Below, piece by piece: positions 3,135-7,921 of a stretch of DNA of 8,325 bases. The stretch comes from a bacterium (lineage in GTDB: Bacteria > Blakebacterota > Blakebacteria > Blakebacterales > Blakebacteraceae). The stretch spans positions 1 to 8,325 of the forward strand of contig JALGWK010000092.1 in the NCBI GenBank assembly GCA_025774205.1, written 5' to 3'. How positions within the stretch are numbered: position 1 is the stretch's first letter; each line of letters starts with the position of its first letter. The notes under the pieces were generated by a model, which saw nothing but the letters and a program-made list of their open reading frames with translations, ran no database searches and had not been told where the DNA came from. The translations under genes were made by a program, and so were the position numbers.

Positions 3135-3668
3135 ATGCCTTCATCCAGCACCGCGCCCGACTCCATGGAACCGGAGGTGGTGGTGACCGAGGAAGACCTC
3201 GCCACGACAGACGAGATCCTCAAGCAACATCAGTATGATCGCAGCGAGATGATCGCGATACTGCTGGGTGTGCAGGACGCCCTCGGGTACCTGCCTGTAC
3301 CGGTCCTGAAGCATCTCGCGGAACGTCTTGAGGTCTCCCCGATTTCGCTCTTCGGAATCGTAACGTTCTACACCTCATTCCGATTGAATCCGCCGGGACG
3401 TCACAAGTGCACCGTCTGTATGGGAACCGCTTGCCATGTACGCGGCGCCGTGAACGTCCTGAAGGAATTCGAACGCCGTCTCGATATCTCCGCTGGGAGC
3501 ACGACCCCTGACCGTCATTTCCAGCTCGAGACAGTCAACTGTGTCGGCGCCTGCGCCATAGGGCCGCTTGTCATCGTAGATGACGAATACCATGGCAACA
3601 TAACTCCGATAAAAATCCCGAGACTGCTGCGCCGTCTTGAACGTGACAAGGCCGAGGATGTGACATGA
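3135..3668 (+). CDS. NuoE/HydC-like [2Fe-2S] subunit of an NAD(H)-linked oxidoreductase
   Basis: A 177-residue thioredoxin-fold ferredoxin subunit (NuoE, HoxE, HndA, HydC family). In known complexes it carries a [2Fe-2S] cluster next to the flavin subunit. The helical N-terminal region (about 20-75, with MIAILLGVQDALGYLP) is typical. The cluster ligands are visible as C85-x4-C90 (VCMGTACHVRGA) and C126-x3-C130 (NCVGACAIGP). I chose the ATG at 3135 because GGGAGAGG (3118-3125) lies 9 bases upstream. An ATG at 3126 abuts that ribosome-binding site, and a TTG at 3045 would add an implausible leader. It is the first gene of a four-gene operon, and its stop overlaps the next start as ATGA. Membership of this family is certain. 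Which complex it serves is inferred from its neighbours: there are no complex I membrane or NuoBCD subunits, so a soluble enzyme is implied. Confidence 0.93.
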   Translation: MPSSSTAPDSMEPEVVVTEEDLATTDEILKQHQYDRSEMIAILLGVQDALGYLPVPVLKHLAERLEVSPISLFGIVTFYTSFRLNPPGRHKCTVCMGTACHVRGAVNVLKEFERRLDISAGSTTPDRHFQLETVNCVGACAIGPLVIVDDEYHGNITPIKIPRLLRRLERDKAEDVT

Positions 3669-5542
3669 CCGGCAAGATCAGATCCGTCAGCGAACTGCAT
3701 GAATTCCAGGCGTCCCTGAAGGAAGAACTGCAGGGCGACCGCACTGTCATCACCCTCTGCGCCGGTCCCGGTTGCGCGGCCAGTGGCGCGGACAACGTGG
3801 CCAAGGCCTTCCGGAAGCACATCGAAGAGATGGGCCTGACCGACCAGGTGACCTTCAAGTGCACCGGCTGTCACGGATTCTGTGCCCTGGCGCCTGTGGT
3901 TGCCATCGATCCGGCAGGGTACTGCTATGAGGGTGTGAAGCAGGCCGATGTGAAGGATATCCTCGAACGCACCATCATCGGTGGTGAGGTCATCGAGAAG
4001 CTGCTTTACGTCGACCCGGAGACGGGAGAGCCCGTTCTGTATGAGAAGGACATCCCCTTCTACAAACATCAGGACCGCATACTGCTGGCCGAGAACCGGC
4101 AGATCGACCCCGACCGCCTGGAGGACTTCCTCGCCATAGATGGGTACAGCGCTCTGGCCAAGGTGCTGGATGAGATGTCATCGGAGGACGTGATCCAGGC
4201 CATACTCGATTCCGGCCTGAGGGGCAGAGGCGGAGCGGGATTCCCGACCGGGTTGAAATGGCAGATCGCCCATCAGCAGACGGCTGAACCGAAATACATC
4301 GTCTGCAACGCCGATGAAGGCGACCCCGGAGCCTTTATGGACCGGGGGATCATCGAAGGCAATCCGCATCGGGTAATCGAAGGCATGTGTATCGGTGCCC
4401 GCGCGATCGGCGCGAACCAGGGGTTTGTCTATGTCCGCTACGAATACCCGATCGCCGTACAACGGATCAACCAGGCCGTTGACCAGGCCCGGGAGGCGGG
4501 ACTGCTGGGAGAGAACATCCTCGGGTCCGACTTCAGTTTCGACCTCAAGGTCGTGATGGGCGCCGGGGCTTTCGTCTGCGGCGAGGAAACCGCGCTCATC
4601 GCCTCGCTTGAAGGCAAAAAGGGCGAACCGGTCCAGCGCCCGCCTTTTCCCGTCGAGTCGGGGTACCGGGGCAAGCCGACGGTCATCAACAACGTCGAGA
4701 GCTGGACCTGCGTGCCCCATGTGATCGGCAAGGGAGCGGAGTGGTTCTCCTCCATCGGTTCGGAAGGCAGCAAGGGGACCAAGATCTTCTCCCTGGTAGG
4801 GAAGGTTAAGAACACCGGACTCGTCGAGGTTCCGATGGGAACGACGATCCGCAAGATCGTCTACGACATCGGAGGAGGTGTCCCCAACGGCAAGAGCTTC
4901 AAAGCCATCCAGACAGGTGGACCTGCCGGCGGCTGTCTGCCTGAGGATCTCATCGACCTGCCCATCGACTTCGAGGCGCTGACCAAAGCGGGAACCATCA
5001 TGGGGTCGGGTGGTCTGATTGTGATGGATGAGTCGACCTGCATGGTCGACGTGGCCCGCTACTTCACCCGTTTTCTCGAGGAGGAGTCGTGCGGCAAGTG
5101 CTACTCCTGCCGCAAGGGAACGCAACGGATGCGGGAGCTCCTCGACGACATCTGCGAGGGGAAGGGAACGCTCGATCATCTCGACCTGCTCGAGGAACTG
5201 GGCGAGACCGTGAACAACGCGAGCATGTGCGGGCTGGGGCAGAACGCCGCGAACCCGGTTTTGTCGACCCTTCGCTACTTCCGTCACGAATACGAGGCCC
5301 ACATCACCGAACACCGCTGTTCAGCCGGTGTCTGTGCGGCTCTGATCAGGTACTTCATTCAGGAAGAGCTCTGCGACGGATGTCACGCCTGCTCCAAGGT
5401 CTGTCCGGTCGAAGCGATCAGCGGTGAGAAGGACCTGGAGCACGAAATCGATCCCGATGTCTGCATCACATGCGGATCATGCATCGAGGTCTGTCCGACG
5501 GATGCGATCATCATCGTCTCGGGAAGTGGGGAAGAAGCATGA
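3665..5542 (+). CDS. NuoF/HydB-like NAD(H)- and FMN-binding subunit with extra Fe-S domains
   Basis: A 625-residue cytoplasmic flavoprotein with the domain order of HydB/HndC, the NAD(H)-reactive subunit of bifurcating hydrogenases and related enzymes. First comes a thioredoxin-like [2Fe-2S] domain (C32-x4-C37, C69-x3-C73). Next is the NuoF core with GRGGAGFPTGLKW (187-199) and NADEGDPGAFMDR (215-227) for NADH/FMN, GAGAFVCGEETAL (299-311), and the [4Fe-4S] site C476-x2-C479-x2-C482 with C522. The C-terminal domain begins with an H550-R-C552-x4-C557 motif and ends in two ferredoxin clusters: C570, C573, C576, C580 and C600, C603, C606, C610. Plain complex I NuoF lacks both added ends; they are characteristic of the hydrogenase/bifurcating branch. 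The ATG start overlaps the previous stop (ATGA) with GAGG 7 bases upstream, and its own stop overlaps the next start in the same way, implying coupled translation. NAD(H) reactivity is well supported; true bifurcation is an inference. Confidence 0.95.
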   Translation: MTGKIRSVSELHEFQASLKEELQGDRTVITLCAGPGCAASGADNVAKAFRKHIEEMGLTDQVTFKCTGCHGFCALAPVVAIDPAGYCYEGVKQADVKDILERTIIGGEVIEKLLYVDPETGEPVLYEKDIPFYKHQDRILLAENRQIDPDRLEDFLAIDGYSALAKVLDEMSSEDVIQAILDSGLRGRGGAGFPTGLKWQIAHQQTAEPKYIVCNADEGDPGAFMDRGIIEGNPHRVIEGMCIGARAIGANQGFVYVRYEYPIAVQRINQAVDQAREAGLLGENILGSDFSFDLKVVMGAGAFVCGEETALIASLEGKKGEPVQRPPFPVESGYRGKPTVINNVESWTCVPHVIGKGAEWFSSIGSEGSKGTKIFSLVGKVKNTGLVEVPMGTTIRKIVYDIGGGVPNGKSFKAIQTGGPAGGCLPEDLIDLPIDFEALTKAGTIMGSGGLIVMDESTCMVDVARYFTRFLEEESCGKCYSCRKGTQRMRELLDDICEGKGTLDHLDLLEELGETVNNASMCGLGQNAANPVLSTLRYFRHEYEAHITEHRCSAGVCAALIRYFIQEELCDGCHACSKVCPVEAISGEKDLEHEIDPDVCITCGSCIEVCPTDAIIIVSGSGEEA

Positions 5543-6261
5543 AACTGATATCGCTGAATATCAACGGATTGCCGGTCGAGGTGGAAGAGGGTACCACCCT
5601 CCTTGAGGCGGCAAGGGCGTATGGTGTCAATATCCCGACCCTCTGTCACGATGACGGCCTCAGCAGTTACGGAGCCTGTCGCCTCTGCGTCGTCGAGATC
5701 GGCCCTCCCGGCAAATCGAAGATGGTGTCTTCCTGTACCTACCGGTGTGAAGATGGGCTTGAGGTCCGCACACACTCGGCGAAAATCATGAAAACACGGG
5801 CGATGATGCTCGAACTGCTGGTCAGTTCTTCACCGCAGTCGAAGACGATTCAGGACCTCGCTTCTGCGCATGGCATGACGAAGCAGCGTTTTCGACCTGA
5901 ACATGAAGACTGTATTCTGTGTGGTCTCTGCATCCGGATGTGTGCGGAGCAGATGATGTCATCGGCGATCGGATTTGTGGGCCGTGGACCGAACCGCCGC
6001 ATCACCACCGCTTTCGATGAGGTCTCAGAGGTCTGCCGAAGATGTGGCGGTTGCATGTATATCTGTCCGGTATGCATGTCACGTTGCCATGGCCCTGACG
6101 AAGAGGCGACCCTCTGCAATGCCTGCCTCAATTTCAGCCCATCGTGTGTTGCGGTATATGATGATGTTCAATGCTGGATGCCGCCGGAATGCGGCACCTG
6201 TGTCCGTCCCGAAGGGGATTACCTGCCCGCCACCGGGCGGTTGGCAACAGAAGAATCATAA
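5539..6261 (+). CDS. HoxU/NuoG-N-like Fe-S electron-transfer subunit with Cys-rich tail
   Basis: A 240-residue protein related to the N-terminal part of NuoG/HydA and to HoxU, which relays electrons between the flavin subunit and a catalytic partner. A plant-type [2Fe-2S] domain has C36, C47, C50 and C66. A two-cluster ferredoxin domain has C125, C128, C131, C135 and C156, C159, C162, C166. The His-Cys3 [4Fe-4S] site of NuoG (H-x3-C-x2-C-x5-C) is not visible between the two. Beyond the last ferredoxin Cys come eight more cysteines (C169, C173, C183, C186, C193, C202, C208, C211) in about 45 residues, which is unusual for HoxU; an extra cluster or a zinc site is possible. None of the three H-cluster motifs of [FeFe] hydrogenase is present. 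I chose the ATG at 5539 because the sequence there begins exactly as family members do (MKLISLNINGLPVEVEEG) and overlaps the preceding stop as ATGA. Confidence 0.9.
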   Translation: MKLISLNINGLPVEVEEGTTLLEAARAYGVNIPTLCHDDGLSSYGACRLCVVEIGPPGKSKMVSSCTYRCEDGLEVRTHSAKIMKTRAMMLELLVSSSPQSKTIQDLASAHGMTKQRFRPEHEDCILCGLCIRMCAEQMMSSAIGFVGRGPNRRITTAFDEVSEVCRRCGGCMYICPVCMSRCHGPDEEATLCNACLNFSPSCVAVYDDVQCWMPPECGTCVRPEGDYLPATGRLATEES

Positions 6262-6276
6262 ACAGAGAAACAGCCC

Positions 6277-6300
6277 GGAATAGTGGGCATTCCAGGAGGA
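6277..6300 (+). promoter_or_regulatory. Intercistronic stem-loop next to a strong ribosome-binding site
   Basis: In the 45-base gap before the last gene, GGAAT (6277-6281) and ATTCC (6289-6293) can pair around a 7-base loop. The near-perfect Shine-Dalgarno AGGAGGA (6294-6300) follows at once, 6 bases before the ATG at 6307. The ribosome-binding site fixes the start and gives this gene its own strong initiation, unlike the overlapping upstream genes. The hairpin is small, and a role in tuning translation or protecting the mRNA is speculation. Confidence 0.4.
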
Positions 6301-6306
6301 ATCACA

Positions 6307-7860
6307 ATGTCGTACACCAAGGTCAACGCGAGCGCTGCAACGCTCTCGAAAAACCGCACCGAAGACGCCATCACGACCATTTCCGGGATGTGCGCGACCT
6401 GTGTGGACGGCTGCGTCGGGATGTGCGAGATCGGCAAATCCGCATATCGTGGAGCGGAAATGATCTACCCGCAGCCCTTCGGCATCATCACCGCTGCATC
6501 CGAGAAGGATTACCCGATCGACTACAGCCACCTGACCATCCTCGGGACCGCCAAGGGCGCTCACGGGATCGAGGAGGACAGTGACAAGGCGATCTTCCCG
6601 AACGTGAAGCTGGAACGGGAGATCGGAGTTGACAACAAGTTCACAGTCGGCCTCCCCTTCATCATCGCCGGTATGGGATCCACCAACGTCGCCGCCAGGA
6701 ACTGGGAAGGCCTCTCCATCGGAGCAGCCCTTCAGGGCGTACCCCTTACCATCGGTGAGAATGTGGTGGGGATGGACATGCAGTCCGAATTCAAGGACGG
6801 CAGGGTGTTGAAATCCCCCGGGCTCGAGAGCCGCGTGAAACCTTATCAGGATTGGCAGATCGACGGCAAAGGCGATGTGATCCTGCAGGCAAATATCGAG
6901 GACACACGTCTGGGCGTCCAGGAGTACGCAATCGAAAAGCTCGGTGTCAAAACTGCCGAACTGAAGTGGGGTCAGGGTGCCAAGGACATCGGTGGCGAAG
7001 TCATGATCACCAACCTTGAGAAGGCGCAGGAGCTATACAAGCGTGGTTACGTGGTTCTCCCCAACCCCACTGACCCCATTGTGATCGAATCATTCAAGTC
7101 GGGCGTCTTTCACGAGTTTGAGCGGCACAGCCGTGTCGGCATGATCAACGAGGAAGACTTCATGGCCCGTGTCGAGGAACTGAGGGCAGCCGGCGCACAG
7201 CGTCCTGCCGACCTGGCCAGAGCGGTCAAGTGGGCCTCCCAGGCACGACTCGACCTGCTGACGGTCGACGGTGCCGGGGGCGGAACCGGCATGAGCCCCT
7301 GGCGCATGATGAACGAGTGGGGTGTCCCGATTGTCGAGCTGCACAGCCTGACTCACAACATGGCAAAGCACCTTGACGAGAAGGGTGAGTTCGTGCCCGA
7401 TATCGCCTTCGCGGGTGGATTCACCTTCGAAGACATGATCTTCAAGGGACTCTCGCTCGGCGCGCCGTACACCAAACTGATCGCGATGGCGCGTTCGCCG
7501 CTGGCGGCCGCCATGGTCGGAAAGACCCTGGGCAAACACATGGCCGACGGCGCGATGCCCGTCTTCGTGGGCCGCTTCGGCACCACGCCGGAAGAGGTGT
7601 TCATCACGGCTCCCGAACTGAAGGACCTCGTTGGTCCGGAACGTTTCAAGGAGATGCCGACCGGCGCCATGGGTGTCTACACCTACTTCAGCCGGCTGGC
7701 ACAGGGCCTGCGCCAGATCATGGCCGGTGAGCGCAAGTTCAACCTCGACGTCATCACGCGTGATGATGTGGCCTGCCTGACGCGGGAATCCGCCGACGTC
7801 ACCGGGCTGCCCTACATCACCGAGGTGGACGCCAAAGAGGTCGAGGCGATTCTCGGATAA
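6307..7860 (+). CDS. FMN-binding glutamate-synthase-like (GltB central domain) protein
   Basis: A 517-residue protein of the FMN-binding glutamate synthase family, consisting of the (beta/alpha)8 synthase domain alone. It has no N-terminal glutamine amidotransferase domain and no GltB C-terminal beta-helix. Family signatures are ELKWGQGAKDIGGE (218-231), the glycine-rich TVDGAGGGTGMSP (319-331) and AFAGGFTFEDMIFKGLSLGA (377-396), the last two forming the flavin phosphate site. The three-Cys [3Fe-4S] site after this domain in canonical GltB is absent. Instead four cysteines cluster near the N-terminus (C29-x2-C32-x3-C36-x3-C40) and may hold a [4Fe-4S] cluster; the only other Cys is C490. The ATG at 6307 is preferred over an in-frame GTG at 6283 because AGGAGGA is ideally placed. 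Its position at the end of a diaphorase operon suggests it is the catalytic subunit, receiving or giving electrons through the HoxU-like protein. The substrate is unknown; glutamate formation cannot be assumed. Confidence 0.88.
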   Translation: MSYTKVNASAATLSKNRTEDAITTISGMCATCVDGCVGMCEIGKSAYRGAEMIYPQPFGIITAASEKDYPIDYSHLTILGTAKGAHGIEEDSDKAIFPNVKLEREIGVDNKFTVGLPFIIAGMGSTNVAARNWEGLSIGAALQGVPLTIGENVVGMDMQSEFKDGRVLKSPGLESRVKPYQDWQIDGKGDVILQANIEDTRLGVQEYAIEKLGVKTAELKWGQGAKDIGGEVMITNLEKAQELYKRGYVVLPNPTDPIVIESFKSGVFHEFERHSRVGMINEEDFMARVEELRAAGAQRPADLARAVKWASQARLDLLTVDGAGGGTGMSPWRMMNEWGVPIVELHSLTHNMAKHLDEKGEFVPDIAFAGGFTFEDMIFKGLSLGAPYTKLIAMARSPLAAAMVGKTLGKHMADGAMPVFVGRFGTTPEEVFITAPELKDLVGPERFKEMPTGAMGVYTYFSRLAQGLRQIMAGERKFNLDVITRDDVACLTRESADVTGLPYITEVDAKEVEAILG

Positions 7861-7887
7861 TTCTCCGGGAAGTTTCTTCTGGAAAAG

Positions 7888-7921
7888 GGTCTGTCGGTTA
7901 CCGCCGGCAGGCCTTTTTTTT
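7888..7921 (+). terminator. Rho-independent terminator of the oxidoreductase operon
   Basis: GGTCTGTCGG (7888-7897) pairs with CCGGCAGGCC (7904-7913) over ten positions, including two G-U pairs, around a 6-base loop. Eight T residues follow (7914-7921). It begins 27 bases after the stop codon of the GltB-like gene. This is a textbook intrinsic terminator in the plus direction. It also borders the decayed minus-strand gene on its right. Confidence 0.9.

Follow-up and report, generated by a model that had tools for sequence, protein, structure and literature searches.

The stretch analyzed here, referred to as the window, is 8,325 nucleotides long and constitutes the entire contig C309 (JALGWK010000092.1) of a Blakebacterota metagenome-assembled genome (MAG; GCA_025774205.1), which measures 3.09 Mb and is 86% complete. 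Open reading frame (ORF) calling shows four co-directional genes on the plus strand at 3135-7860, bfuC, bfuB, bfuA, and a gene that we call GltX (Table 1). The bfuC/bfuB and bfuB/bfuA junctions (3665 and 5539) are ATGA overlaps, and the probable start codon of GltX, ATG 6307, is preceded by AGGAGG. The first three genes encode a diaphorase core of the Bfu family and the fourth encodes a glutamate-synthase-like protein, which takes the place that a hydrogenase or formate dehydrogenase subunit would have in related systems.

Table 1. Features of the bfuC-bfuB-bfuA-GltX operon in the window.
Feature	Position	Strand	Evidence
BfuC, NuoE/HoxE-like [2Fe-2S] thioredoxin-like subunit, 177 aa	3135-3668	+	PF01257 156 bits; Cys 95, 100, 136, 140
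BfuB, NuoF/HydB-like, FMN/NADH site and B1-B5 cluster ligands, 625 aa	3665-5542	+	Pfam, PDB matches, ligand alignment
BfuB C-terminal two [4Fe-4S] ferredoxin-type clusters (B3/B4); GltD domain instead in sister operons	5354-5515	+	
BfuA, HoxU-like: N-terminal [2Fe-2S], two [4Fe-4S], without His-Cys3 region; probable ATG 5539	5539-6261	+	
BfuA Cys-rich C-terminal tail, Cys 178-220	6073-6201	+	BfuA protein alignment
GltX, glutamate-synthase-like FMN barrel subunit, putative third-substrate subunit	6307-7860	+	PF01645, hhalign, AF2 fold
GltX CX2CX3CX3C motif, putative [4Fe-4S] site	6391-6426	+	C31, C34, C38, C42 invariant, 27 sequences
GltX junction of clean 27-bp in-frame deletion (ITLKTGAYR lost)	7203/7204	+	DNA alignment with L005, protein alignments
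Intrinsic terminator ending the operon: 17-bp stem and U-run	7882-7919	+	RNA fold -25.1 kcal/mol, z -6.0

BfuB shows the domain set of the Bfu family (IPR011538, IPR019554, IPR019575, IPR017896) through the matching Pfam families PF01512, PF10531, PF10589, and two Fer4 domains, all above the cut-off, and has in addition an N-terminal thioredoxin-like (Trx-like) [2Fe-2S] domain. BfuC shows the NuoE-like domain of the family (IPR002023), based on its PF01257 score and Cys pattern. The top matches of BfuB in the Protein Data Bank (PDB), between 777 and 648 bits, include NiFe-HydB (777), HydB (754, 733, and 651), and Nfn-Bfu (667); the next group reaches only 405 bits, with the chains of formate dehydrogenase and complex I far below the bifurcating ones. 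In NiFe-HydB, the B2 cluster is bound by C438, C476, H525, C531, and C536, the His being absent from non-bifurcating homologues and the second Cys being variable, as described in the Bfu survey (PMC9304861). All five ligands are found in the window BfuB (C459, C497, H546, C552, and C557, in an ungapped alignment to NiFe-HydB with an offset of 21), and the cysteines of B1, B3/B4, and the Trx-like domain are complete as well (CCCC/CCCC/CCHCC/8 Cys), which gives the full B1-B5 set. The B2 His is kept in every aligned BfuB that is linked to GltX, the second B2 Cys varies, and one or two cysteines of the Trx-like domain are missing in several of them. The complex I-type NuoF of the same genome (L107) has neither B2 nor the C-terminal clusters (B2-B4), and neither do the NuoF of the L106 and L104 sets from a related genome. 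Judged by these domains and ligands, the diaphorase core belongs to the electron-bifurcating, HydABC-like branch of Bfu. The preliminary description had proposed a NuoE/NuoF/HoxU-like core of this branch with extra Fe-S domains, which Pfam, PDB matches, and cluster ligands all bear out; it had also suggested coupling to NAD(H) and perhaps ferredoxin, and the ferredoxin part now appears firmer than "perhaps", because all B1-B5 ligands are present. Linkage to GltX cannot be read cleanly from BfuB, whose tree requires four label changes, and its use as a marker was rejected.

BfuA shows the [2Fe-2S] (IPR001041; PF13510, 67 bits) and 4Fe-4S (IPR017896) domains of the family. Its Fer4 dicluster (PF12838) scores 25.2 bits, slightly short of the required 27, and its eight Cys are all in place; the nearest PDB chain of BfuA is 9mqx_A. 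The layout is short and resembles that of Type 2 Bfu, and a terminal tail adds about eight Cys. This tail occurs in nearly all aligned GltX-linked BfuA (shortened in L007) and is absent from most other BfuA. GltX-linked sequences form one supported clade in the BfuA tree (100/99), which also contains one long-branched BfuA without an adjacent GltX (L055); comparable tails are found in L055 and in the BfuA of L190-L192, which are divergently adjacent to GltX. The tail probably carries one or more additional Fe-S clusters toward GltX.

GltX matches PF01645 with 42 bits in the window copy, over the cut-off on a partial profile, and with 56 bits in the intact copy of locus L005. Profile-profile comparison with true GltS domains using hhalign gives a prob of 97 and an E of 2e-11 over 321 columns, and the QGAK-type and GGTG-SP-type motifs are retained. 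The AlphaFold2 (AF2) model of the L005 protein is an FMN-type barrel with a mean predicted local distance difference test score (pLDDT) of 73 and poorly predicted first 100 residues; its nearest folds include GltS (1ofd) and 2-hydroxyacid oxidases, with FMN 2-hydroxyacid oxidases at the top by Z. The four Cys of the N-terminal CX2CX3CX3C motif are the only invariant ones among the 27 aligned sequences. By motif and profile, GltX is a remote relative of glutamate synthase, GltS-like rather than a GltB because several defining features of GltB are missing. It shares with bacterial GltB (PF01645 domain), which works with GltD, the FMN barrel and the GGTG-SP and QGAK-type motifs, and a GltD domain is present in some of the operons studied here; in contrast to GltB, it has no glutaminase domain or [3Fe-4S] cysteines, carries the N-terminal Cys motif, and would be expected to receive its electrons from BfuCBA.

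The window copy of GltX is damaged. Compared with the near-identical DNA of L005, it is short of 27 bp, and the nine lost residues, ITLKTGAYR, are present in some form in all intact homologues aligned; the LKTGAYR part is invariant in 24 homologues, and its Lys falls where the barrel strand of GltS has its conserved Lys. With nine conserved residues of the FMN barrel gone, the window GltX is likely to be inactive or a product of misassembly. The preliminary description had placed a GltB-like FMN protein in the catalytic position, inside the same terminator-bounded operon, which remains valid, and had missed this loss. The same assembly contains an intact sister operon on contig C409, with its own BfuCBA and a GltX 91% identical to that of L005. 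A third unit, on contig C53 (L124, G000:C53:1-3162), encodes a 1013-aa fusion of BfuB/NuoF with a GltD-like NAD(P)H domain and, after it, the first part of a BfuA; the fusion is 69% identical to window-type BfuB over the shared part, and the BfuA start is 80% identical to that of the window over 40 residues. It is rather probable that decay or misassembly affects the operon of the window and that only the C409 operon, perhaps with that of C53, works, which is compatible with the function proposed below. An in-frame stop in the GltX of another, acidobacterial, genome (L007:4746-6326), which has a second unit of the GltD type (L119), fits decay as well. Nevertheless, the reading frame and all other features of the window operon are intact, the remainder of its GltX is 98% identical to L005, and an error in MAG assembly or binning may explain the lost segment. 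A further protein, in L001 (G000:C484; 487 aa), fuses a rubredoxin-like domain to a glutamate-synthase FMN domain and is encoded beside a rubrerythrin-like gene.

Fusions to GltD recur elsewhere. In L111, L112, L119, L182, and L184, a GltD-like domain replaces the two ferredoxin-type clusters of BfuB (the L119 contig stops in BfuA), so that the BfuB C-termini vary between Fer4 and GltD while BfuA and GltX stay together. GltD is the usual electron-input partner of GltB. Fusions like the one on C53 adjoin a longer, hydrogenase-sized BfuA in L120 and L123.

A first scan of 84,980 species gave 45 GltX loci, a few of them cut by contig ends. About 21 have the four-gene order, with BfuA directly upstream of GltX and BfuB before it where the DNA allows, and 24 do not. 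Its hosts are largely uncultured bacteria of soil, groundwater, and sediment, with genomes that are Latescibacterota-like or belong to Acidobacteriota, Desulfobacterota, and Gemmatimonadota. GltX occurs in 32 of the 247 acidobacterial genomes sampled, with BfuA directly upstream in 29/30 fetched loci, and in 98 of 198 genomes of Desulfobacterota, the phylum of Desulfacinum. There, all four genes are present in 8/8 loci with the closest GltX; at 22 more distant loci inspected, BfuCBA lies outside the GltX operon and is divergently adjacent in three. At these frequencies, chance does not account for the arrangement. The expectation that GltX stands beside the diaphorase genes in other genomes holds in several phyla and fails at about half of the first-scan loci and most inspected loci of Desulfobacterota. 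Unlinked GltX show about 41-57% identity and the same Cys motif, and occupy separate branches of the tree; genome G014 holds both kinds. No fifth gene recurs beside the linked operons. In L188 (G300:C83), GltX occurs twice in tandem, with about 0.4 kb between the genes. A protein of about 435 aa, with a C-terminal helix-turn-helix (HTH) and cupin and an N-terminus resembling RecA/KaiC-like ATPases, is encoded between divergent GltX and BfuCBA in L160 (6753-8057), L163 (3074-4378), and L190 (6549-7862), and HTH-cupin genes recur near unlinked GltX. In the window itself, genes for a GAF-HD-GYP type phosphodiesterase (1378-2694) and a PduO-type cobalamin adenosyltransferase (821-1381), both on the minus strand, diverge from the operon.

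Unlinked GltX of Desulfacinum, other Desulfobacterota, Dehalococcoidia, and Omnitrophota belong to the same family outside a bfuCBA operon, often near genes for glutamine synthetase, glutamate dehydrogenase (GDH), an ANTAR regulator, or aldehyde ferredoxin oxidoreductase (AFOR). Around 21 of them, the flanking ORFs include regulators (GAF, sigma-54 activators, HTH-cupin, ANTAR, and NrpR) as well as glutamine synthetase, NAD synthase, an ammonium transporter, and carbamoyl-phosphate and asparagine synthetases. In L021, L029, L032, and L033, AFOR lies directly 3' of an unlinked GltX; three of these loci also contain a small gene of 124 aa. The comparison of linked and unlinked neighbors was biased by query genes chosen from unlinked loci and was redone without that choice. 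In 5/23 acidobacterial genomes, a gene of the GDH family is found no more than about 10 kb from Bfu-linked GltX, the expected number being 0.28 (P 7e-6, with no correction for relatedness among the genomes). These neighborhoods point to glutamate or nitrogen chemistry, and amino-acid-forming chemistry is favored because nitrogen genes occur near unlinked GltX and GDH-family genes near linked GltX. Of the "unknown reaction at a GltB-type FMN site" proposed at first, the site can be kept, whereas the reaction no longer seems wholly open.

We propose that the operon encodes a soluble Fe-S flavoenzyme of the Bfu family, in which GltX replaces hydrogenase or formate dehydrogenase as third-substrate subunit and reduces an imino or 2-oxo acid, a reading to which we give an even chance. 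NAD(H) would bind at the FMN of BfuB/BfuC, and the C-terminal clusters of BfuB would exchange single electrons with ferredoxin. Electrons would travel through the clusters of BfuA and its Cys-rich tail, enter GltX at its N-terminal [4Fe-4S], and reach its FMN, where the imino or 2-oxo acid would be reduced, most likely to glutamate or a related amino acid. In this organism, the working copy would be the C409 operon. The sequences show the parts, their conserved order, the cofactor ligands, the GltX-specific clade and tail of BfuA, and the exchange of the ferredoxin module for a GltD domain; we infer that the four subunits form a complex, that it bifurcates or confurcates electrons, and which substrate it uses in which direction. 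Several results weigh against this proposal. The GltS [3Fe-4S] triad has no counterpart in the GltX alignments, a class-II glutaminase (PF00310) is found neither in GltX nor in the operon or the genome of the window (86% complete), and the GltX profile, when searched against PDB sequences, matched only designed TIM barrels, taken as chance, and no convincing relative. Directly beside most Bfu-linked operons, the acidobacterial loci included, there is no recurring gene of nitrogen metabolism. Glutamate synthase (GOGAT, PF00310) shows no clear difference between acidobacteria with and without GltX (5/25 and 4/14, P 0.70), and most genomes with GltX have a GDH-family gene. Because GOGAT presence does not clearly differ and the GDH family is common in these genomes, a need for GltX in glutamate synthesis is unsupported, and we do not retain GltX as a stand-in for missing GOGAT.

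The same complex might instead act on a substrate that is not an amino acid, such as a 2-hydroxy or 2-oxo acid, the nitrogen signal belonging to the unlinked GltX clade only. This is possible but doubtful: FMN 2-hydroxyacid oxidases are the best structural matches of the GltX model by Z, unlinked GltX differ at about half of their residues and lie on other branches, and AFOR adjoins several of them, but the motif-level and profile homology of GltX is to GltS, some GltX operons contain a fused GltD domain, and five acidobacteria have GDH-family genes clustered with Bfu-linked GltX. It is unlikely that BfuCBA works by itself as an NAD(H):ferredoxin module that provides reduced ferredoxin, with GltX a separate ferredoxin-dependent enzyme that is only co-transcribed. 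The absence of an adjacent module from GltX in many Desulfobacterota, Dehalococcoidia, and Omnitrophota, which counts against our proposal too, and the putative [4Fe-4S] site that GltX itself owns would fit such an arrangement; nevertheless, the clade-specific BfuA tail tracks GltX, with a similar tail in the divergently adjacent BfuA of L190-L192, and BfuA and GltX remain together while the BfuB C-terminus varies. A hidden hydrogenase or formate dehydrogenase partner is rejected for this operon, since a Pfam-type domain search finds no H-cluster or molybdopterin family among the window proteins, as first described, and the [FeFe]-hydrogenase HydA of the genome lies on contig C414 with its own NuoE/F/HoxU set.

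The proposed third-substrate enzyme is related to several known systems. Bfu Type 2, for example Wor-Bfu and Bam-Bfu in the survey (PMC9304861), shares a BfuB with B1-B5, BfuC, a short BfuA without His-Cys3, and a separate third-substrate subunit. Type 2 BfuA lacks A3 and A5; here the A3 region is absent and the extra subunit present, whereas the Cys-rich BfuA tail falls outside the types published there. The Stn/Nfn-Bfu transhydrogenase (8oh5, 9n5u) shares the BfuBC core and a GltD-like NADP-binding module, but carries the latter on BfuA, whereas here GltD, when present, is fused to BfuB and the extra subunit is GltB-like. Unlike bifurcating HydABC and formate dehydrogenase, the operon has no H-cluster or molybdopterin catalytic domain. 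A GltB-like partner is absent from the Bfu list published in the survey (PMC9304861, without supplement), and open-licence PMC papers contain no description of such a partner or of a NuoF-GltD fusion. In our reading, GltX marks a new branch of Bfu with respect to the third substrate.

A more specific and quite improbable version of the proposal is a bifurcating glutamate synthase, in which GltX would be the high-potential acceptor and BfuB would split the electrons of NADH between low-potential ferredoxin and the conversion of 2-oxoglutarate and ammonia into glutamate, which has a potential of about -0.13 V. If true, reduced ferredoxin would be regained from nitrogen assimilation, as Bcd/EtfAB does from crotonyl-CoA.

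The survey leaves 17-18 Bfu clades with no assigned third substrate (PMC9304861), and a recurring partner is now identified for one Bfu group, in bacteria seldom associated with electron bifurcation. That BfuB can carry either a ferredoxin or a GltD module, with BfuA and GltX staying constant, represents a natural experiment on the change of redox partner. The operon suggests a previously undescribed tie between electron bifurcation and nitrogen assimilation, a link that is testable.
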